DNA from: Devosia sp. YIM 151766
Lineage (GTDB): Bacteria > Pseudomonadota > Alphaproteobacteria > Rhizobiales > Devosiaceae
Direction: 5' to 3'
DNA: 64,000 nt
Assembly (NCBI RefSeq): GCF_030285925.1
Contig: NZ_CP127251.1
Location: forward strand, 496,001-560,000
The notes under the pieces were generated by a model. The model had not been told where the DNA came from. It made no database searches and saw only the letters and a list, made by a program, of their open reading frames with translations. This document shows, one piece after another, positions 14,308-31,971 of this stretch. Positions within the stretch are counted from its first letter, which is position 1. The number at the start of each line of letters is the position of its first letter. The translations under genes were made by a program, and so were the position numbers.

Positions 14308-17300
14308 ATGAACGACACCGCTTCTGGCGCGACCGAAAAAGATTATTCGGCCACGCTCTTCCTGCCGGAAACCGAATTTCCCATGCGCGCCGGGCTCCCC
14401 GCCCGCGAGCCCGTCTGGCTCAAGCGCTGGGAAGACATGGATATTTACGCCCTGCAACGCGAGCAGGCCAAGGACCGGCCGCTCTTCACCCTCCATGACG
14501 GCCCGCCCTATGCCAATGGCAATATCCATATCGGCCATGCGCTCAACAAGGTGCTGAAGGACCTGGTATCGCGCTCCATGCAGATGCTGGGTCACAATGC
14601 CGCCTATGTGCCTGGCTGGGATTGCCACGGCCTGCCCATCGAATGGAAGATCGAGGAGCAATATCGCGCCAGGGGCAAGGACAAGAACCAGGTCCCGGTG
14701 GTCGAATTCCGCCAGGAATGCCGCACCTTTGCCGAACAATGGGTCGATATCCAGCGCGAGGAATTCAAGCGGCTGGGCGTCCTGGGCGAATGGGACAATC
14801 CCTATCTCACCATGAGCTTCGACGCCGAGGCGCAGATCGCCCGCGAGCTGATGAAGGTCTCGATGACCGGCCAGCTCTATCGCGGCTCCAAGCCCGTCAT
14901 GTGGTCGGTGGTCGAGCGCACCGCGCTGGCCGAAGCCGAAATCGAATATCAGGACTATGAGAGCGACGTCATCTGGGTGAAGTTTCCGGTTGTGCAAGCC
15001 GTCGCGGCTGATACTTCGGAACGGACGGCAGCGAACGCCGATCTCGACATGCGGGATGCGGGGGCTGCGAAAAGAGCCCTTTTGGCCCGCGCAAGTGTCG
15101 TCATCTGGACCACGACGCCTTGGACCATTCCCGCAAACCGCGCGATCTCGTTCTCATCGCAGATTAGCTATGGCTTGTATGAAGTCACCAAAGCTGCCGA
15201 AGGCAATTGGGCAAAGGTTGGTGACTTGTATGTCTTGGCGGACAATCTGGCCGAAGAAGTACTGGCCAAAGCCAAGGTTGAAGCATTTGAGCGCAAGGAC
15301 AGCGTAGCGAGTCTGGAACTTGCCGCCATCACCTGCGCCCACCCCTTGCGCGGCCTCGCCGGCGGTTACAATTTCGACGTCCCCCTGCTCGATGGCGAAC
15401 ACGTCACCGATGATGCCGGCACCGGTTTCGTGCACACCGCCCCTGGCCACGGCCTCGATGACTTCGGCCTGTGGATGGATTCGACCCGGCTTCTCAACCA
15501 GCGCGGCATCGATCCGACCATCCCCTACGCCGTCGACGATGCCGGCTTCTACACCAAGGACGCCCCCGGCTTCGATGGCGCCCGCGTCATCGACGACAAC
15601 GGCAAGAAGGGCGACGCCAATAATCGCGTCATCGCCGCTTTGGCCGAGCATGGCAATATCATCGCCCGCGGCCGGGTGAAGCACCAATATCCCCATTCCT
15701 GGCGCTCCAAGAAGCCGGTGATCTTCCGCAACACGCCGCAATGGTTCGTCTATATGGACAAGCCCATCGCGGGCTCCCTTCCTCTCCCCCTCGGCGAGAC
15801 GGGTGAGGGCGCTCCCGACACGCTGCGCAACCGTGCCCTCGCCGCCATCGATGCCACCAGGTTCTACCCCGCCGCCGGGCAGAACCGGCTGCGCGCCATG
15901 ATCGCCGATCGCCCCGATTGGGTGCTGAGCCGCCAGCGCGCCTGGGGCGTGCCGATCACCGTCTTCGTCCACAAGGAGACCGGCGAGATCCTTCGCGACG
16001 AAGCGGTCAATCACCGCATCGCCCAGAGCTTCGAGGACGAGGGCGCCGATGCCTGGTACCAGCCGGGCGCCGCCGAACGTTATCTCGGCGGCGACTATAA
16101 GTCGGACGATTACGAGATGATCCGGGACGTGCTCGACGTCTGGTTCGATTCCGGCTCGACCCATTCCTTCGTGCTGCGCAACAAGCAGAAATGGCCGCAT
16201 CTGAAATTCCCGGCCTCGATGTATCTCGAAGGCTCGGACCAGCATCGCGGCTGGTTCCACTCGTCGCTGCTCGAAAGCTGCGCCACCAATGGCCACGCGC
16301 CCTATGACAGCGTCCTCACCCATGGTTTCACCATGGATGGCGAGGGCCGCAAGATGAGCAAGTCGCTGGGCAATGTCGTCGCCCCGCAGGAGATCATCAA
16401 GCAATATGGCGCCGACATCCTGCGCCTCTGGGTCGCCTCGGCCGATTATTCGGAAGACCTGCGCCTGGGCAAGAAGATCATCCAGACCACGGTGGATTCC
16501 TACCGCAAGCTACGCAATACCCTGCGCTGGCTGCTCGGCAATCTGGCTCACTTCAACAAGGATGACGTGGTCGATCCCGCCGACATGCCCGAGCTGGAGC
16601 GGCTGATGCTGCATCGCCTCGCCCAGCTCGATGCCGGCGTCCGCACGGCCTATAAGGAATACGATTACCGCAAGGTCGTGACCCTACTGACCAATTTCAT
16701 GAACATCGAGCTTTCGGCGTTCTATTTCGATATCCGCAAGGACGCGCTTTATTGCGATCCGATCTCCTCGGTGACGCGCCGCTCGGCCCTCACCGTGCTC
16801 GAACACCTGTTCAACGCGCTCACCGCCTGGCTCGCGCCCATCCTGGTCTTCACCATGGAGGAATGCTGGCTGGAACGGCATCCGGACCCGGCGGAATCGG
16901 TGCATCTGCGCCTGTTCCCGGATATCCCGGCGACCTGGCTGGACCACGATCTGGCCGGCAAATGGCAGCTCATCCGCGCCGTCCGCCGCGTCGTCACCGG
17001 CGCCCTCGAGGTCGAGCGCCGCGAAAAGCGCATCGGCTCCTCGCTGGAGGCCGCGCCCCGCATCCATGTCGCCGACCCCCGCTACATCGTGGCGCTGGAA
17101 GGACAGGACCTCGCCGAAATCGCCATCACCTCGGCGGTTCAGGTCACGCAGGACGAGGGACCGCCCGAGGCCTTCCGCCTCGAGGATGTGCCCGGCATTT
17201 CCGTCATGCCGGCAATGGCCGAGGGCCAGCGCTGCGCCCGCTCGTGGAAAGTGCTGCCCGAAGTGGGCTCGGACCCGGACTATCCCGACGTCTCCCCCCG

Positions 17301-19004: not shown

Positions 19005-20624
19005 ATGTCAGAAAGCCCGCTCATGAGCGACACGCCCAAACAACCCGAAAATGCCGACCGTCTCGCCAAGGTCATTGCCCGCGCCGGCCTCTGCTCCCGC
19101 CGCGATGCCGAAGGCTGGATCGCCGATGGCCGTATCTCGGTCAATGGCAAGAAGGTGCTCACCCCCGCCTTCAACGTCACCAGCCGCGACAAGATCGAGG
19201 TCGATGGCCTGCCGCTGGCCGCCCGCCAGGGCACCCGCATCTGGCTCTATCACAAGCCCGCCGGCCTGGTGGTCACCGAAAAGGACCCCGAAGGCCGTGC
19301 CACCATTTTCGAGGCGCTGGACAGGAAGGGCCTGCCGCGCGTGCTCACCGTGGGCCGCCTCGACATCAATACCGAAGGCCTGCTGCTGCTGACCAATGAT
19401 GGCGGCCTCAAGCGCGTCCTCGAATTGCCCGCCACCGGCTGGCTGCGCCGCTATCGCGTCCGCGCCCATGGTTCGGTCACCCAGGCCCAGCTCGACGGCC
19501 TCAAGAACGGCATCGCCGTCGAGGGCGTCCAATATGGCCCCATCCAGGCCACGCTGGAGCGCGAGCAGGGCGCCAATGTCTGGCTGGTGCTCGGCCTGCG
19601 CGAGGGCAAGAACCGCGAGGTCAAGAACGTGCTGGGCTCGCTCGGCCTCGAGGTGAACCGGCTGATCCGCATTTCCTACGGCCCCTTCCAGCTCGGCGAT
19701 CTGGCCGAAGGCGCGGTGGAAATGGTCAAGTCCCGCATGCTGCGCGACCAGCTCGGCAAGAAGCTGGCCGAGGCCGCCGGCGTCGATTTCGACAGCGAAA
19801 TGCCCGAAATGCCGGCCCCCCGCGACGAGCGCCCGGTCCGCTCCCCCCGCGACCGCGACCATAGCCGTCCCAATCCGGCGCGCGGCGCCGCCACCGACCA
19901 GCGCCGCCCCTCCTATGGCCGCGATGCCGAAGAGCGCCCGACAGGCCGGCCGCGCCGCATCCATTTCGACGACGATGGCCGCGCGCCCGAGGCCTTTGTG
20001 CCCAAGGCGCCGCCGCGTTCGCGCCACGCCCCGGACGATCGGCCCGCCCGTGGCTTCGGCAAGCCGGCGCCGCGCGGCGACCGCCCGCAGGGCGGCAAGC
20101 CCTTCGGCGACAAGCCCAAGCGCGATTTCGGCGATCGGCCGCCGCGCAGCGGCTTTGGCGATCGGCCGGCCCGTGGCGGCTTCGCCGACCAGCCCAAGCG
20201 CGATTATGGCGACAAGCCCGCCCGCACCGGCTTCAGCGACCGGCCCAAACGCGATTCCGGCGACCGGGCGCAGCGGTCCTTCGGCGATAAGCCCGCCCGG
20301 GGGGCGCGGCCGGAACGCGGCTTCGAGGATCGGCCCAAGCGGCCCTATGGCGACCGGCCTCAGGGCGGTCGCCCCGGCGGCAAGCCTTTTGCCGGCAGGC
20401 CCGACGGCAAGCCCTTTTCTGGCAAGCCGGGCGGTCCGCGTCCGGGGGGGCGGCCCACCGGCGGCCGCCCGCCAGCCGGCCGCCCGCCAGCCGGCCGCCC
20501 GCCAGCCGGCCGCCCGCCAGCCGGCCGCCCGCCAGCCGGCCGTCCGCCAGCCGGCCGCCCGCCAGCCGGCCGTCCGCCAGCCGGCCGTCCCGCCGGTCCG
20601 CGCAAGCCGCGCAACGACCGCTGA
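19005..20624 (+). CDS. RsuA/RluB-family 23S rRNA pseudouridine synthase with repetitive tail
   Basis: A 539-aa protein. An S4 RNA-binding domain comes first (RLAKVIARAGLCSRRDAEGWI). The RluB-type catalytic domain follows, with the nucleophile Asp in GRLDINTEGLLLL and the downstream REGKNREVK. This part ends near residue 260. The remaining half is disordered: an Arg/Asp/Gly/Pro-rich region with loose repeats such as FGDRPARGGF, then eight exact RPPAG units. Such tails may bind RNA. Modification of helix 89 of 23S rRNA is inferred from family. ATG 19005 is used; ATG 19023 is equally possible, and an earlier frame extension to 18888 looks non-native. Confidence 0.88.
   Translation: MSESPLMSDTPKQPENADRLAKVIARAGLCSRRDAEGWIADGRISVNGKKVLTPAFNVTSRDKIEVDGLPLAARQGTRIWLYHKPAGLVVTEKDPEGRATIFEALDRKGLPRVLTVGRLDINTEGLLLLTNDGGLKRVLELPATGWLRRYRVRAHGSVTQAQLDGLKNGIAVEGVQYGPIQATLEREQGANVWLVLGLREGKNREVKNVLGSLGLEVNRLIRISYGPFQLGDLAEGAVEMVKSRMLRDQLGKKLAEAAGVDFDSEMPEMPAPRDERPVRSPRDRDHSRPNPARGAATDQRRPSYGRDAEERPTGRPRRIHFDDDGRAPEAFVPKAPPRSRHAPDDRPARGFGKPAPRGDRPQGGKPFGDKPKRDFGDRPPRSGFGDRPARGGFADQPKRDYGDKPARTGFSDRPKRDSGDRAQRSFGDKPARGARPERGFEDRPKRPYGDRPQGGRPGGKPFAGRPDGKPFSGKPGGPRPGGRPTGGRPPAGRPPAGRPPAGRPPAGRPPAGRPPAGRPPAGRPPAGRPAGPRKPRNDR
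20466..20585 (+). repeat. Eight tandem 15-bp units encoding RPPAG
   Basis: The unit CGCCCGCCAGCCGGC, with a single C/T wobble (CGCCCG or CGTCCG), is repeated eight times without interruption and stays in frame with the pseudouridine synthase. An RPAG partial unit follows. The near-identity of the units suggests recent slippage expansion, so copy number probably varies between strains. Confidence 0.95.
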
Positions 20625-23757: not shown

Positions 23758-24750
23758 ATGCCCAAATTCACCCTGCCACTCGCCGCTCTCACCACCTTCC
23801 TGCTCACCGGCAGCGCCCTGGCCGCGCCACAGATCGTCGCCTCCACCAAGCCCATCCATTCCCTGGTTGCCGCCATTATGGGCGATCTCGGCCAGCCCGC
23901 CCTCATCGTCAAGGGCGCCGCCTCGCCCCACACCTATTCGCTCCGCCCCTCCGATGCGGCCGCCCTGGAAAGCGCCGATATCGTCTTCTGGACCGGCCAT
24001 GGCATGGAGCTTTTCCTCGCCGATGCGCTCGAAACCCTCGCCAAAAATGCCGAAGTGGTCGAGCTGGCCGAAACCCCGGGCATCGACTTGCTGCCGCTCC
24101 GCGAAGGCGGCGCCTTCGAGGCGCATGACCATGGCGAGGAGCATCACGGCCACGACCATCATGATCACGACCACGACCATGACCACGACCATGACCATGA
24201 CCACGATCACGACCATGATCATGATCACGACCACGGCGAAGGCGACATGCATTTCTGGCTCGACCCGGCAAATGCCGGGCTGATGGCCACCCATATCGCC
24301 GATACCCTGTCCGCCGCCGATCCTGAAAATGCCGAAATCTATGCCGCCAATGCCGCGGCCGAACTGGCCCGGCTCGACCAGCTTGCCGCCGAACTGGAGG
24401 AAATCCTCGCCCCGTTATCCGGCAAGCCCTTCATCGTCTTTCACGATGCCTATCAATATTTCGAAGCCCGCTTCGGCCTCGAGGTTGCCGGCACGGTCAC
24501 CGTCTCGCCCGACATCATGCCCGGCGCCGCCCGCATCGATGAACTGCGCGCCAGAATAGCCGAACTCGGCGCCACCTGCGTCTTCGCCGAGCCCAATTTC
24601 GAGCCCGCCATCGTCCGCACCATCGTCGAAGGCACCCAGGCGCGGCCCGGCGTGCTCGACCCCGAAGGCGCCGCCCTCACCGAAGGTCCCGACCTTTATC
24701 CCCAATTGCTCCGCGGCCTGGCCGCCGGCCTCCTGGACTGCCTCGGCTAA
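23758..24750 (+). CDS. znuA: Zinc-binding periplasmic protein ZnuA
   Basis: A 330-aa cluster A-I solute-binding protein. The signal peptide is MPKFTLPLAALTTFLLTGSALA. Zinc ligands are expected at His60-equivalent in ASPHTYSLRPSDA, in MHFWLDP and in FHDAYQYFE. A long mobile loop of His and Asp (about residues 121-162, including some 14 DH pairs) precedes MHFWLDP; such loops scavenge zinc. The loop is encoded by a near-perfect GACCAC/GACCAT repeat likely to vary in length. An AAGAGG ribosome site precedes the ATG. It delivers Zn2+ to ZnuBC, encoded divergently. Confidence 0.95.
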   Translation: MPKFTLPLAALTTFLLTGSALAAPQIVASTKPIHSLVAAIMGDLGQPALIVKGAASPHTYSLRPSDAAALESADIVFWTGHGMELFLADALETLAKNAEVVELAETPGIDLLPLREGGAFEAHDHGEEHHGHDHHDHDHDHDHDHDHDHDHDHDHDHDHGEGDMHFWLDPANAGLMATHIADTLSAADPENAEIYAANAAAELARLDQLAAELEEILAPLSGKPFIVFHDAYQYFEARFGLEVAGTVTVSPDIMPGAARIDELRARIAELGATCVFAEPNFEPAIVRTIVEGTQARPGVLDPEGAALTEGPDLYPQLLRGLAAGLLDCLG

Positions 24751-26689: not shown

Positions 26690-26818
26690 GTCCGACACCC
26701 CCACCCTAGCCCTCCCCTCAAGGGGGAGGGGACCGGCCGGTGTTCCGGGCAAAATCGCGTCATATCCACCGGCCCAAAGCCCCTCCCCCCTGAGGGGAGG
26801 GGTTGGGGTGGGGGTGCT
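26690..26818. repeat. Pair of inverted class E palindromes between cobW and cobN
   Basis: GACACCCCCACCCTAGCCCT with CCCCTCAAGGGGGAGGGG, 50 bp of spacer, then CCAAAGCCCCTCCCCCCTGA and GGGGAGGGGTTGGGGTGGGG ending GGTGCTGCG. The second is the approximate reverse complement of the first. The same two half-sites make up each unit of the array in cobN, so this is a single, intergenic form of that element. Confidence 0.85.
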
Positions 26819-26874
26819 GCGTCGCCAACCTGCGCCACGTCGCCAATCCGCTCCACCATCAAAGGCACCCCCTG

Positions 26875-29800
26875 ATGCACCTGCTCTCCGCCCAGGCCGG
26901 TGCCATCCAGCAGGAAGGCGAGGCCATCGACCTCGCCCAGTCCCCCGGCGCCTATATCTTCGCTTCCTCCGCCGATAGCGAGCTGGCCATGCTGGCCGCT
27001 GCCGCCGACCGCGCCGGGGAATCCGGCCTGCGCCTCGCCAATAGCCTACGCCTGGCCAACAACCTTTCCGTCGACATGTGGCTGGAACAGACCGTCGCCC
27101 ATGCCGGCCTCGTCGTCCTCCGTCTTCTCGGCGGCACCGCCTATTTCCAATATGGCGTCGATGAGCTCACCGCCCTTTGCACCAATAAGAACATTCCCCT
27201 CGTCCTCCTGCCCGGCGACGCCAATCCCGACCCCATCCTGCAGGCGCGCTCCACCATCCATCCCGACGACTGGTCCGCCCTCCACCAATTGTTCGTCGCC
27301 GGCGGCCCCGAAAACGCCGATGCGATTCTGGTGGCGTTTGCCGCACTGTCTCACCAGTCTCCGGCCCAACGGGGAGGGGTTGGGGTGGGGGTGCCGGCGC
27401 CTGTCATCGCGCCACGGCTCGTCAACGTGGCGCCGCAACCCTTCCCCCGCTTCGGCCTCTGGCACCCGTCCATCGGCATGACCGACCAGGCCGGCCTGCG
27501 CGCGCTGCACGCCCCTTCATCCGGTGCGGCGCTCCCCTCTTATTCCTCTTCCCCTCGGGGAGAGGGTGCCCGAAGGGCGGGTGAGGGGGAGCCCGAGACG
27601 GGCGAGGGGGCGGTCCACATCCCCATCCTTTTCTACCGCGCCGCCCTCGAAGGCGCCGGCACCGCCACGCTCAGCGCCCTCATCGCCGAACTCGAATCCC
27701 GCGACCTCGCCCCCGTTCCCATCGTCATTTCCTCGCTCAAGGAGGCCGCCTGCATCCGCTTCGTCCAGGATGCGCTGGCCGCCTTTCCGCCGGCGGCGAT
27801 CTTCAATCTCACCGCCTTCGCCCTCGGCATTGCCGATCTGGATGAGACGACCAACCCCTTTGCCGGCACCGACGCGCCGATCATCCAGCTCATCCAGTCC
27901 GGCCGCTCCCGCGCGCAATGGCAGGCCGATCCGCAGGGCCTCTCCTCCAAGGACATGGCGATGTATCTCGTCATGCCCGAAGTCGATGGCCGCATCGGCG
28001 GCATCCTTGTCGGCCACAAGGCCGATGCCGTCTGGCACGCCCGCACCCAATGCCCGCTCAGCGCCTATGAACCCGAACCCGAGGGCATAGGCCGCGCCGT
28101 CGATCTCGCCCAGAACTGGGCCCGCCTCCGCCACACCCCCCGCGCCGAGCGCAAACTCGCCATCATCCTCTCCAACTACCCCATCCGCGACGGCCGCCTC
28201 GCCAACGGCGTCGGCTACGACGCCCCCGAATCCACCGCGCGCATGCTGATGGAACTGGAGCGGACAGGGTACGACCTCGGCCCATCGGCTCCATCGCCAA
28301 AGCCCCTCCCCCTTGAGGGGAGGGGTTGGGGTGGGGGTGCTGCGCCCGCCTCAACCCACGACGCCTCGGTTCGCTCAACCTCCGACACCCCCACCCCTGA
28401 CCCCTCCCCTCAAGGGGGAGGGGAATCCTCGGCCCCGGCCCCCCTTTCTCCAACGGCCACCGGCCCAAAGCCCCTCCCCCTTGAGGGGAGGGGTTGGGGT
28501 GGGGGTGCTGTGCCCGCTCCAATCCACGACGCCTCGGTTCGCTCAACCTCCGACACCCCCACCCCTAACCCCTCCCCTCAAGGGGGAGGGGAATTCTCGG
28601 CTCCGGCCCCCCTTTCTCCAACGGCCACCGACCCAAAGCCCCTCCCCCTTGAGGGGAGGGGTTGGGGTGGGGGTGCTGCGCCCGCCCCAATCCATGACGC
28701 CTCGGTTCGCTCAACCTCCGACACCCCCACCCCTGACCCCTCCCCTCAAGGGGGAGGGGGATCCTCGGCCCCGTCATCCCTTTCTCCAACGGCCACCGGC
28801 CCAAAGCCCCTCCCCCTTGAGGGGAGGGGTTGGGGTGGGGGTGCTGCGCCCGCCCCAATCCACGATGCCTCGGATCGCTCAACCTCCGACACCCCCACCC
28901 CTGACCCCTCCCCTCAAGGGGGAGGGGGATCCTCAGCCCCGTCACCCCTCTCTCCAACGGCCACCGAGCCAAAGCCCCTCCCCCTTGAGGGGAGGGGGTG
29001 GGGAGGGGGTGCTGCGCCCGCCACAACCCACGATGCCTCGGTTCGCCCGCCCTCCGATGCCACCCCGGCCCTCCCCTCAGTGGGGAGAGGGTGGACCGGT
29101 GGTCCCGGACATACCAATGCCCGCCTCTCGCGCCCCCTCAAAAATACCGTTCTGGCCCGAACGCTGCGCTCAAACCCACCCCAGCCGGAACGCGTGCTGT
29201 GGCTGCTGCTGCGGGAGGCCTTTCCCGAAGCCCATTTCCGCCGTCAGGCGCCCATCGGTCCCTATTTCGCCGACTTCGCTTCCCACAGCGCCAAACTGAT
29301 CATCGAACTCGACGGCGATAGTCATGGCAGCGACAAGGCGCAGCTTTACGATGCCGGCCGCGATGCATTCTTGCGCGCCGCTGGATACCGGGTGCTTCGC
29401 ATCCCCAATAATGAAGTCAGCAATCTGGATGGCGTTGGAGCCCTGATCGCCGAGCATCTCGCCGCCGCTCCTGATCGCTCCCCGCAGGCGGGTCGTGGTG
29501 AGGATCACCCAACCTATCCCCGCACCTCCGCCGATCTCATCGCCCTGCTCACCGCCGGTCCCACCAATGCCCATCAGGCCCGTGGCCGCTCCGCTGCCAT
29601 CTTGCCGCTTGCCCGCTATGCGGCGCTCTTCGCCGAACTTCCCGAGGAAACCCGCGCCGCCGTGACCGCCCGCTGGGGCGATCCCGTCACCGATCCGTTC
29701 ATCCGCGACGGCGCCTTCCACCTCCCCGCCCATCGCTTCGGCAATGTCGTCATCATGCTGCAGCCGGCGCGCGGCTATCAGCTCGATGAAACCGCGAGCT

Positions 29801-31971
29801 ATCACGACCCGGCCCTGGTTCCGCCCCACGCCTATATCGCCGCCTATCTCTGGCTGCGTCAGGAATTCGGCGCCCATGCCATGGTCCATAATGGCAAGCA
29901 CGGCACACTCGAATGGCTCCCCGGCAAATCCGCGGCGCTCGACGCCGATTGCTATCCCGACGCCCTGTGGGGCCAACTGCCCCATATCTATCCCTTCATC
30001 GTCAACGATCCGGGCGAGGGCACCCAGGCCAAGCGCCGTACCGGCGCCGTCATCATCGATCATCTGGTTCCCCCGCTCACCCGCGCCGAAACCTATGGGC
30101 CGCTGAAGGACCTCGAAGCCCTGCTCGATGAATATTACGCCGCTTCCGGCATGGATCGCCGCCGCCTGAAAGACCTCAAGCAGCGCATTCTCGATTTCAC
30201 CCGCGATGCCCGCCTCGACCAGGACATCGGCCTGCCCGAAGACGAAGCCGAGGCCCTGGTCAAGATCGACAACTTCCTGTGCGATTTGAAGGAAGCCCAG
30301 ATTCGCGACGGCTTGCACATTTTCGGGTCTTCGCCCGCCGGAGGACTCGAGCGCGACCTTGCCGTCGCCTTGGCCAGAATACCGCGCGGCGACGCGCCCG
30401 GGGATAATTCGCTGATCCGCGCCCTCGCCGATGACCTCAAACTCGGTTTCGATCCCTTGACCGCCATTTTGGGCGAGCCCTGGCACGGACCGGACGTTTT
30501 TGCCGCTATGGCAATGCTCAACGCTAACAGTCTGTTACCCAATCGGCGCATTGGTGACGTCATTGCCAATCTCGAAACCATCGCCGCCGAGCTCGTCTCC
30601 GATATCCGTCCTTGCCCGGATGACTGGCCGGCCACCAGGGCGGTTCTGCGGACGGTGAAAACCCTGATAAAGCCGCGCCTCGCCGCCTCCGGCCCGGCCG
30701 AGATGCAGGCCTTTCTCGACGCCCTCGACGGCAAGTTCATCCAGCCCGGCCCCTCTGGCGCTCCCTCGCGCGGCCGTCTCGATGTCCTGCCCACCGGGCG
30801 CAATTTCTATTCCATCGATGCGCGGGCCGTCCCCACGCCAAGTGCTTGGGAACTCGGAAGAAAATCGGCCGAAAACCTGATTCTGCGCCATCTTCAGGAC
30901 CATGGCCATTACCTCGCATCCGTCGCCCTTTCGGTCTGGGGCACCGCCAATATGCGCACCGGCGGCGACGATATCGCCCAGGCCATGGCGCTGATCGGCG
31001 CCAAGCCGGTCTGGGATCCCGGCTCGCTCCGCGTCTCCGGCTACGAGATCGTTCCGCTGGCCCGGCTCGGCCGCCCCCGCGTCGACGTAACCCTTAGAAT
31101 TTCCGGCTTTTTTCGCGATGCCTTCCCGGCGCAGATCGCTCTGTTCGACCGTGCCGTCCGCGCCATCGGCGCCCTCGACGAACCCGACGACGACAATCCC
31201 ATCGCCGCCCGCATGCGGATTGAGGCCCTGGGCCTCATGGCGCAGGGCAAGTCGGAACAGGATGCCGCTCTCGAAGCCGGTGCGCGTATTTTCGGTTCAA
31301 AACCAGGCACTTACGGTGCAGGGCTTGGTCAGTTGATCGACAATGGCAACTGGAATGACAAGACCGATCTCGCCAATCAGGCCCTGGCCTGGGGCCAATA
31401 TGCCTATGGCGCCAAGGCCGATGGCGTGGCCCTCCATGACCGCTTCCGCGCCCGGCTCGGCCAGATCGATGCGGTAATCCACAATCAGGATAATCGCGAA
31501 CACGACCTGCTCGACAGCGACAATTATTACCAATTCGAAGGCGGCCTCGCCGTCGCCGCCGAAATGCTGTCCGGCACCAGGCCCGCCGCCTATCACAACG
31601 ACCATTCCCGCCCCGACACGCCGAAAATTCGGACGCTGGAACAAGAGATTAGCTATGTCATGCGCAGCCGCGTGGTCAATCCGAAATGGCTTGCCGGCAT
31701 CATGCGCCATGGCTATCGCGGCGCCTTCGAGATCATCGCCACGCTCGATTTCATGTTCGCCTTCGCTGCCACCACCGGCGCAGTCAAGAGCCACCATTTC
31801 GACCTGGCGTTCGAGGCCTTCGTAAAAGACGATGCAGTCCGGGAATTCCTCAAGCATTCCAACCGTTTCGGCTATGACGAGCTGATCGCCAAATTCCTCG
31901 AGGCCCGACAAAGAGGCCTCTGGTCCCCCCGTTCAAATTCCGCTTTCGCCCTTCTGGAGGAAACGCCATGA
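26875..31971 (+). CDS. cobN: Cobaltochelatase CobN with in-frame palindrome array and DUF559 domain
   Basis: A 1698-aa frame; known CobN is about 1275 aa. CobN inserts Co2+ into hydrogenobyrinate a,c-diamide with CobS and CobT, using ATP. Family blocks are clear: FPSVDM-like NLSVDMWLEQ, IPILFYRAALEGAGT, LGIADLDET, then after the insert HNGKHGTLEWLPGKS, LPHIYPFIVNDPGEGTQAKRR and NPKWLAGIMRHGYRGA. Residues about 472-882 are foreign: five 56-aa repeats (475-740) and a DUF559 nuclease-like domain (749-865). Smaller in-frame repeats lie near residues 160-176 and 213-247. No stop interrupts any of these. ATG 26875 starts the family homology. The stop overlaps cobO (ATGA). Whether the product chelates cobalt is unknown. 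Confidence 0.92.
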   Translation: MHLLSAQAGAIQQEGEAIDLAQSPGAYIFASSADSELAMLAAAADRAGESGLRLANSLRLANNLSVDMWLEQTVAHAGLVVLRLLGGTAYFQYGVDELTALCTNKNIPLVLLPGDANPDPILQARSTIHPDDWSALHQLFVAGGPENADAILVAFAALSHQSPAQRGGVGVGVPAPVIAPRLVNVAPQPFPRFGLWHPSIGMTDQAGLRALHAPSSGAALPSYSSSPRGEGARRAGEGEPETGEGAVHIPILFYRAALEGAGTATLSALIAELESRDLAPVPIVISSLKEAACIRFVQDALAAFPPAAIFNLTAFALGIADLDETTNPFAGTDAPIIQLIQSGRSRAQWQADPQGLSSKDMAMYLVMPEVDGRIGGILVGHKADAVWHARTQCPLSAYEPEPEGIGRAVDLAQNWARLRHTPRAERKLAIILSNYPIRDGRLANGVGYDAPESTARMLMELERTGYDLGPSAPSPKPLPLEGRGWGGGAAPASTHDASVRSTSDTPTPDPSPQGGGESSAPAPLSPTATGPKPLPLEGRGWGGGAVPAPIHDASVRSTSDTPTPNPSPQGGGEFSAPAPLSPTATDPKPLPLEGRGWGGGAAPAPIHDASVRSTSDTPTPDPSPQGGGGSSAPSSLSPTATGPKPLPLEGRGWGGGAAPAPIHDASDRSTSDTPTPDPSPQGGGGSSAPSPLSPTATEPKPLPLEGRGWGGGAAPATTHDASVRPPSDATPALPSVGRGWTGGPGHTNARLSRPLKNTVLARTLRSNPPQPERVLWLLLREAFPEAHFRRQAPIGPYFADFASHSAKLIIELDGDSHGSDKAQLYDAGRDAFLRAAGYRVLRIPNNEVSNLDGVGALIAEHLAAAPDRSPQAGRGEDHPTYPRTSADLIALLTAGPTNAHQARGRSAAILPLARYAALFAELPEETRAAVTARWGDPVTDPFIRDGAFHLPAHRFGNVVIMLQPARGYQLDETASYHDPALVPPHAYIAAYLWLRQEFGAHAMVHNGKHGTLEWLPGKSAALDADCYPDALWGQLPHIYPFIVNDPGEGTQAKRRTGAVIIDHLVPPLTRAETYGPLKDLEALLDEYYAASGMDRRRLKDLKQRILDFTRDARLDQDIGLPEDEAEALVKIDNFLCDLKEAQIRDGLHIFGSSPAGGLERDLAVALARIPRGDAPGDNSLIRALADDLKLGFDPLTAILGEPWHGPDVFAAMAMLNANSLLPNRRIGDVIANLETIAAELVSDIRPCPDDWPATRAVLRTVKTLIKPRLAASGPAEMQAFLDALDGKFIQPGPSGAPSRGRLDVLPTGRNFYSIDARAVPTPSAWELGRKSAENLILRHLQDHGHYLASVALSVWGTANMRTGGDDIAQAMALIGAKPVWDPGSLRVSGYEIVPLARLGRPRVDVTLRISGFFRDAFPAQIALFDRAVRAIGALDEPDDDNPIAARMRIEALGLMAQGKSEQDAALEAGARIFGSKPGTYGAGLGQLIDNGNWNDKTDLANQALAWGQYAYGAKADGVALHDRFRARLGQIDAVIHNQDNREHDLLDSDNYYQFEGGLAVAAEMLSGTRPAAYHNDHSRPDTPKIRTLEQEISYVMRSRVVNPKWLAGIMRHGYRGAFEIIATLDFMFAFAATTGAVKSHHFDLAFEAFVKDDAVREFLKHSNRFGYDELIAKFLEARQRGLWSPRSNSAFALLEETP
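27352..27402 (+). repeat. In-frame class E palindrome half-site in cobN (first)
   Basis: CCAACGGGGAGGGGTTGGGGT and GGGGGTGCCG encode QRGGVGVGVP. The sequence matches the right half of a class E unit (GGGGAGGGGTTGGGGTGGGGG). It lies between CobN blocks ILVAFAALS and the PRFGLWHP segment. It keeps the reading frame. Confidence 0.8.
27520..27615 (+). repeat. In-frame palindromic insertion in cobN (second)
   Basis: CCTCTTCCCCTCGGGGAGAG, then GGTGCCCGAAGGGCGGGTGAGG, encodes SPRGEGARRAGEGEPETGEG just before the conserved IPILFYRAALEGAGT. The GGTGCCCGAAGGGCGG core is typical of rhizobial-type intergenic palindromes. This is a different subtype from the 168-bp array. Confidence 0.78.
28297..29095 (+). 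repeat. 168-bp tandem palindrome array inside cobN (4 full units plus a partial)
   Basis: The motif CCAAAGCCCCTCCCCCTTGA starts at 28297, 28465, 28633, 28801 and 28969, an exact 168-bp period. Each unit has a right half-site (CTTGAGGGGAGGGGTTGGGG), about 45 bp of spacer, the inverted left half-site (GACACCCCCACCCCTGACCC, CCCTCAAGGGGGAGGGG) and about 45 bp of second spacer. Each encodes 56 residues including PLPLEGRGWGGGA and DTPTPDPSPQGGG. The last unit diverges after about 29045 and leads into the DUF559 domain. 168 is divisible by three, so copy-number change would not shift frame. Confidence 0.97.
29116..29469 (+). other. DUF559 (PF04480) endonuclease-like domain within cobN frame
   Basis: About 118 residues match the whole DUF559 domain: PERVLWLLLREAFPEAHFRR, QAPIGPYFADFASHSAKLII, then ELDGDSHG, AGRDAFLRAAGYRVLRIPNN and a closing helix. 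The E-x-DG-x-x-H core, expected for a Vsr/PD-(D/E)XK-like nuclease fold, is intact. No ATG, GTG or TTG start in this frame lies close upstream, so it appears to be translated only as part of CobN. Free-standing DUF559 proteins of about this length are common in alphaproteobacteria. Biochemical function of the family is not established to my knowledge. Confidence 0.9.

Follow-up and report, generated by a model that had tools for sequence, protein, structure and literature searches.

Short palindromic repeats are abundant in many bacterial genomes, and what spreads them is, to our knowledge, mostly an open question outside the repetitive extragenic palindromic (REP) sequences and their REP-associated tyrosine transposases (RAYTs). 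The Rhizobium-specific intergenic mosaic elements (RIME) and the intergenic repeats of Caulobacter, which are built of two palindromes in inverted order, occur in many copies in Alphaproteobacteria; we know of no enzyme for RIME, nor of one for the Rickettsia palindromic elements (RPEs). RPEs are described, in the available part of one account, as palindromic elements of about 150 bp that lie in frame within genes (PMC10969869). REP/RAYT systems, as set out in the accessible sections of their description, combine a palindrome-flanked enzyme gene, copies and doublets of the palindromes throughout the genome, and covariation of enzyme and palindrome (PMC2817692). The subject of this report is DUF559, a domain of “unknown function” in Pfam, and the palindromes around it. 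The locus at issue lies in a 64,000-nt stretch of the Devosia sp. YIM 151766 genome (NZ_CP127251.1, positions 496,001 to 560,000; hereafter the window), where the vitamin B12 gene cobN carries, in frame, an array of palindromes followed by a complete DUF559 domain. A DUF559 gene and its surrounding palindromes probably constitute a single selfish unit, REP/RAYT-like or homing-like, and the in-frame, palindrome-flanked nuclease together with the family-wide pattern suggests that one type of selfish genetic element has been overlooked.

The window cobN is a single open frame at 26803-31971 on the + strand (1,722 aa, TTG start); its start is uncertain, and position 26875 was taken as the start for analysis. 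Pfam recognizes CobN-Mg_chel in two stretches of this frame, plus a complete, nuclease-like DUF559 (PF04480, E 6.6e-26) at aa 757-862 counted from 26875, i.e., 29143-29460 (+), with the conserved catalytic-type residues retained. Relative to empty linkers of other Devosia, the insert comprises 28282-29520 (+), a total of 1,239 nt or 413 codons that keep the frame, so the preliminary description of this DNA was right to report an in-frame insert of a palindrome array and a whole DUF559 domain. That description also counted five 56-codon repeats. Tandem Repeats Finder places the array at 28297-29057 (+) with a period of 168 bp, 94% matches and zero indels, which upholds the indel-free period, and with 4.5 copies, which replaces the count of five. 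The core of the array is CCCCTCCCC-CTTGA-GGGGAGGGG, and its inverted palindromes number five exact copies in one orientation and four in the opposite one. A degenerate final palindrome, four edits off the core, lies 5′ of DUF559 at 29068-29090 (-), and a decayed one, read by eye and intact in L048 and L054, lies 3′ of it at 29478-29509. Folded as single-stranded DNA, one period plus flank yields -54.5 kcal/mol vs a shuffle mean of -27.8 (z -9.5). The length of the cobN match, compared without the partial L047 and without L042, which has 26 stops, is 1,255-1,308 aa in nine Devosia rows without DUF559 and without stops, 1,317 aa in an uncultured Rhizobiales row (L043) also lacking DUF559, 1,473 and 1,490 aa in rows with DUF559, and 1,698 aa in the window.

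Occupation of this linker varies considerably across the genus. The stretch of cobN just 5′ of the insert was matched in 58 of 75 genomes of the genus, and the linker was extracted from the matching genomes and from named records other than L047, L053 and L107. A cobN tree was built from 56 rows, namely the loci with G handles, the window, and the named records L043 and L044 (identical in sequence to L061); L052 (the window’s second copy), L105 and L106 were omitted. Among these rows, the linker is empty in 19, palindrome-only in 24 (our own criterion being a length of 45 nt or more together with a hairpin or a typical motif), palindrome-DUF559-palindrome in 11, and long without a clear palindrome in two. 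Several palindrome families are found at this same position. The insert is thus missing from most of the examined Devosia and its content is variable, so it is not constant genus-wide, in keeping with the mobile element that the preliminary description had proposed. At this linker, DUF559 is in the cobN frame in 11/11 copies (the window and ten other genomes, with the named duplicates L036 and L048 counted once). An assembly error or frameshift in the repeats, raised earlier as a possible weakness, was rejected as unlikely because those ten other genomes carry in-frame DUF559 here.

On the cobN tree, the DUF559 label requires 11 changes, at least eight of them forced by well-supported branches, and it clusters no better than shuffled labels, which is why a single ancient insertion followed by vertical retention is not favoured. 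The near-sisters L096 and L089 carry DUF559 and a palindrome alone, respectively, the latter of another family. The cobN-bound DUF559 domains form two types, A and B, each of them one group, and many losses from few gains may have occurred at the linker. Synonymous divergence (pS) of DUF559 exceeds that of cobN in 24/25 pairs; it was dropped as proof of horizontal movement, since GC content at third codon positions (GC3; 0.57-0.72 vs 0.80-0.91) confounds it and L079/L096 fit vertical descent.

The same genome possesses one further, free-standing DUF559 gene (L033:9998-10492; domain at genome positions 2390658-2390969, presumed active-site residues D45 and E56), which is likewise bracketed by palindromes. 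Its neighbours read as amidohydrolase and dihydropyrimidinase genes. Many Devosia loci have DUF559 at the same spot, as do L167, L179 and L216, and the Devosia DUF559 loci largely represent one orthologous locus; in L114, L126, L133 and L138, the flanks suggest a DUF559 position across the amidohydrolase gene, on its opposite side. A palindromic end of the free-standing gene has 44 matching rows in its own genome (counting itself and two same-locus rows), 26 of which stop at query base 69, while several are inverted pairs. The cobN-type unit is found at 26 additional near-full-length places at 73-82% identity (counted by hand). Since the palindromes of each DUF559 gene have scattered copies, this genome holds two DUF559 genes and two dispersed families, one matching each. 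Comparable relationships are seen among genomes, in counts that ignore kinship: the median number of TCTCCC palindromes per Mb is 4.74 in 39 genomes of the order with a clear DUF559 vs 0.31 in 62 others (four with weak partial matches being classed as without; 101 genomes in all), DUF559 and palindrome copy number are correlated across 68 Devosia-genus genomes (Spearman 0.46 and 0.47), and genomes with DUF559 in cobN are richer in both palindrome patterns (medians 206 vs 98 and 83 vs 34).

More generally, 81 DUF559 loci were collected from the order, the phylum, 12 plasmid-collection records and the genome itself, and joining those with related flanks left 59 clusters. The loci are a non-random sample consisting of best search matches and others chosen for long frames. 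Strong hairpins were sought within 250 bp of DUF559 in the 57 clusters whose sequence reaches 250 bp or more on each side, and were found on the 5′ side in 42, on the 3′ side in 42, on both sides in 33 and on either side in 51. The control, 20 stretches of 20 kb at round coordinates in genomes with a DUF559 match, had a hairpin at 57/494 gene ends and 54/247 genes (Fisher p 8e-22 against gene ends). The enrichment of palindromes beside DUF559 that the preliminary description had predicted is therefore present. Six clusters lack hairpins (L162, L165, L170, L178, L218 and L231), and in three of these (L178, L218 and L231) the flanks are still a good inverted-repeat match. For local alignment of the flanks, L177 was added to the 57 clusters. 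In 32 of these 58 loci, the 5′ flank aligned to the reverse-complemented 3′ flank of the same locus scores higher than the 99th percentile of cross-locus pairs, compared to 20 in direct orientation, and the inverted score is the better one in 37. By eye, 36 ends follow a common plan: an outer YCCTCYCCC...GGGRGAGG hairpin, frequently joined by a second, variable one, and a G-rich tail that is often GGTGAGGG or GATGAGGG. Similarity of DUF559 is related to similarity of ends (Mantel r 0.24, p 0.003, 36 loci, host kinship uncontrolled). In Sinorhizobium meliloti Ak57 (L168:4430-4560), the unit downstream of DUF559 looks truncated right before an ISRm16 transposase gene.

DUF559 also occurs in frame within other proteins. 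For instance, an HsdM from another class of the phylum (L192) contains DUF559 with palindrome-type linkers on both sides, and this recurrence supports the earlier proposal of frame-neutral insertion. Furthermore, DUF559 shares one open frame ahead of CbiC (L144), PheT (L158, named from its tRNA_bind and B3_4 domains), AlaRS (L222) and DUF1638 (L217), although these may be read-through upstream frames instead of fusions. Seventeen long frames were translated and five were scanned with Pfam; the remainder looked like chance frames beside DUF559.

Beyond Alphaproteobacteria, palindromes of the same kind bracket DUF559 in the records of Neisseria gonorrhoeae and Deinococcus when the hairpin threshold is relaxed slightly, and one lies downstream of ycjD in Escherichia coli. 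Of 5,426 E. coli genomes, 3,362 contain 80% or more of the ycjD query region, and among the matches listed, 22 of 60 cover the fabI side alone. In one E. coli examined from the latter group, sapF and fabI are separated by an efflux operon; the gap is occupied by either ycjD or eefRABCD, and no simple insertion is seen. This variation is interpreted as eef loss in the available portion of one paper (PMC12817139). In the tkt/ypfG spacer of E. coli (L182:1440-1600 and L183-L188), a ycjD-type palindrome is present in two of seven aligned sequences and a REP element in the other five. The palindrome takes the place of the REP element, which points to replacement instead of simple insertion.

Among characterised enzymes, the fold nearest to DUF559 is that of the homing endonuclease I-Bth0305I, followed by Vsr, and an EDxHD-type catalytic fold and residues are present in DUF559. 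A search with PADLOC yielded weak matches only, the best being DpdF (4.3e-05). One sentence in the accessible text of a published study assigns a DUF559 gene to the EDxHD homing family (PMC9403480). DUF559 differs from EDxHD homing endonucleases and Vsr in being bracketed by palindromic repeats, and Pfam found no separate DNA-binding domain in the free-standing DUF559 of L033. The preliminary description had likened the arrangement to REP/RAYT, and inverted palindromic flanks (not universal) and genome-wide palindrome copies sustain that resemblance; enzyme and ends may also covary. It does not extend to the enzyme, which is a PD-(D/E)XK/EDxHD-type nuclease instead of a tyrosine (HUH) transposase; nor is the GTAG/GTGG head regular among the 36 ends viewed by eye (GTAG occurs in L199 and L223), and DUF559 units sit in frame inside genes. 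Because the enzyme is unrelated and the head motif missing, the DUF559 unit works like REP/RAYT but is no member of it. RPEs resemble it in description: the palindromic elements are in frame (the cobN insert and two further cobN linkers) and DUF559-associated units are 114-168 bp long, but a nuclease domain lies between the palindromes of the DUF559 unit. The likeness to RIME, likewise one of description, consists of inverted palindrome pairs. Solo ends are short, inverted and related to the gene-bearing copy, as in miniature inverted-repeat transposable elements (MITEs), yet no target-site duplication was found in Azospirillum plasmids, seven cobN pairs or E. coli tkt/ypfG.

The selfish-unit reading draws on the association of DUF559 with palindromes, the inverted ends, the solo copies, the recurrent in-frame placement, the patchy occupation of the linker, and a low ratio of nonsynonymous to synonymous divergence (pN/pS). 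The unit would be a small EDxHD/Vsr-like nuclease gene between palindromic terminal inverted repeats (TIRs), with solo ends being MITE-like. Most likely, the nuclease nicks or cuts palindromic, cruciform-prone sites, or a matching allele, and repair from a palindrome or a palindrome-nuclease-palindrome copy would then replace the previous content; solo ends would be by-products of such repair-driven copying and replacement. A unit inserted in frame into a flexible linker of a protein would survive, tolerated because it is frame-neutral and its palindromes read as stop-free Gly/Pro-rich linkers. Most likely, CobN carries the nuclease as a translated passenger domain. Later changes in the window copy would be amplification of the 5′ end to the 4.5 tandem units and decay of the 3′ end. 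At cobN, the unit may also work like a homing endonuclease, which the patchy linker occupation fits. A broader proposition, for which we judge the chances to be about even, is that DUF559 drives an unrecognised class of mobile elements with palindromic TIRs, whose solo derivatives are the GC-rich palindromes of Alphaproteobacteria (perhaps those of RIME type), with relatives in E. coli (ycjD), Neisseria and Deinococcus, and with a passenger form in CobN and HsdM in which palindromes serve as both DNA ends and protein linkers.

Several observations weigh against this selfish-unit reading. Plain terminators are included in the hairpin counts, e.g., upstream of E. coli ycjD, and direct orientation gives the better flank score in 21/58 loci. 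Cognate pairing across genomes, tested on 20-kb samples, is weak (best rank in 5/32 vs 1.9 expected; Wilcoxon p 0.005). In thirteen clusters, two to four DUF559 loci share their flanks, in some cases across families, as would be expected of an old host gene. Of the 39 DUF559-bearing genomes of the order, eight hold <5 palindromes; conversely, three of nine Devosia-genus genomes with no DUF559 match are palindrome-rich (G012, G044 and G051). For example, G012 has 252 and 218 palindromes of the two patterns; it may have lost the enzyme, have another mover, or carry a missed gene. Four Azospirillum plasmids, compared over 50-kb stretches, showed 17 indels, all of them free of palindromes, and neither a clean empty site nor a target duplication; no insertion event could be read in the seven cobN pairs, and tkt/ypfG provided a replaced REP element instead of a clean insertion. 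With no clean site and with palindrome-rich Devosia lacking a DUF559 match, cutting, copying and the role of DUF559 as mover are what we infer; of the preliminary claim that DUF559 mobilises palindromes, the association holds, and the movement is hypothetical.

The genes shared at one locus by several families and the palindrome-rich genomes with no DUF559 match would both be expected if DUF559 were a Vsr-like host repair nuclease acting on palindromic hairpins or mismatches, with palindromes gathering through regulation or local repair and being moved by something else. In the part of their paper that is available, the authors of VsrA of Caulobacter propose it as a mismatch-repair enzyme, and that text contains no “palindrom” and, save two uses of “repeat”, no mention of repeats (PMC12907096). 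Such a host role is rather unlikely, however, as it does not account for locus-specific ends that match each other in inverted orientation, for the scattered occupation of the cobN linker, for DUF559 embedded in unrelated proteins, or for the lower hairpin rate near control genes.

An ordinary homing endonuclease that targets fixed sites, among them the cobN linker, with the palindromes being unrelated repeats drawn to the same tolerant positions, would agree with the I-Bth0305I-like fold, the published homing-family assignment (one sentence, PMC9403480), the two cobN-bound groups and the patchy occupation. Hairpins at 51/57 clusters across many loci, combined with matching inverted ends, exceed what a shared site preference predicts, and this explanation appears improbable. 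Pure coincidence, i.e., common GC-rich terminators or REP-like repeats near a small gene fused to cobN, can appeal to the hairpins near 54/247 control genes and to the terminators counted, as at ycjD. It is very hard to reconcile with the Fisher p against gene ends, the inverted matching of ends and the 11/11 in-frame copies at the cobN linker, and is considered highly improbable.

In the open-licence literature, none of the matches listed ties DUF559 to palindromes, and no paper joins “Vsr” with “repetitive extragenic palindromic”. Tied to palindromes across phyla, DUF559 is a testable candidate for a spreader of such repeats. If the selfish-unit reading is true, a conserved enzyme can harbour a selfish gene that endures as its passenger domain, and the annotation of DUF559 genes, including E. 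coli ycjD, would change.

Other palindromic features accompany the insert in and around the window cobN. A solo two-palindrome unit at 26691-26821 (genome places 522691-522732 and 522774-522821) occupies the cobW-cobN gap and extends into the longest cobN frame. In G058 (L084:5475-5843), where the linker is palindrome-only, a DUF559 sequence lies ~800 bp upstream of the matched part of cobN, at a position approximating that of this solo unit. Two further cobN linkers contain varied palindrome-type sequence, both in frame when checked: one at 27352-27399 (+; HQSPAQRGGVGVGVPA), which differs in the other Devosia compared, and one at 27528-27590 (+), which repeats the palindromic end found at the free-standing DUF559 gene. 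The latter match is 93% over query bases 1-40 at 27528-27568 (genome 523528-523568), and its extension to 27590 was made by eye. Another short match to the same end is located at 15779-15805 (genome 511779-511805). Elsewhere in the window, tandem repeats of 15, 27 and 78 bp occur at 20102-20601, and a His-Asp rich repeat (HDHDHD) at 24145-24235 belongs to a gene read as encoding a zinc-binding transporter protein.
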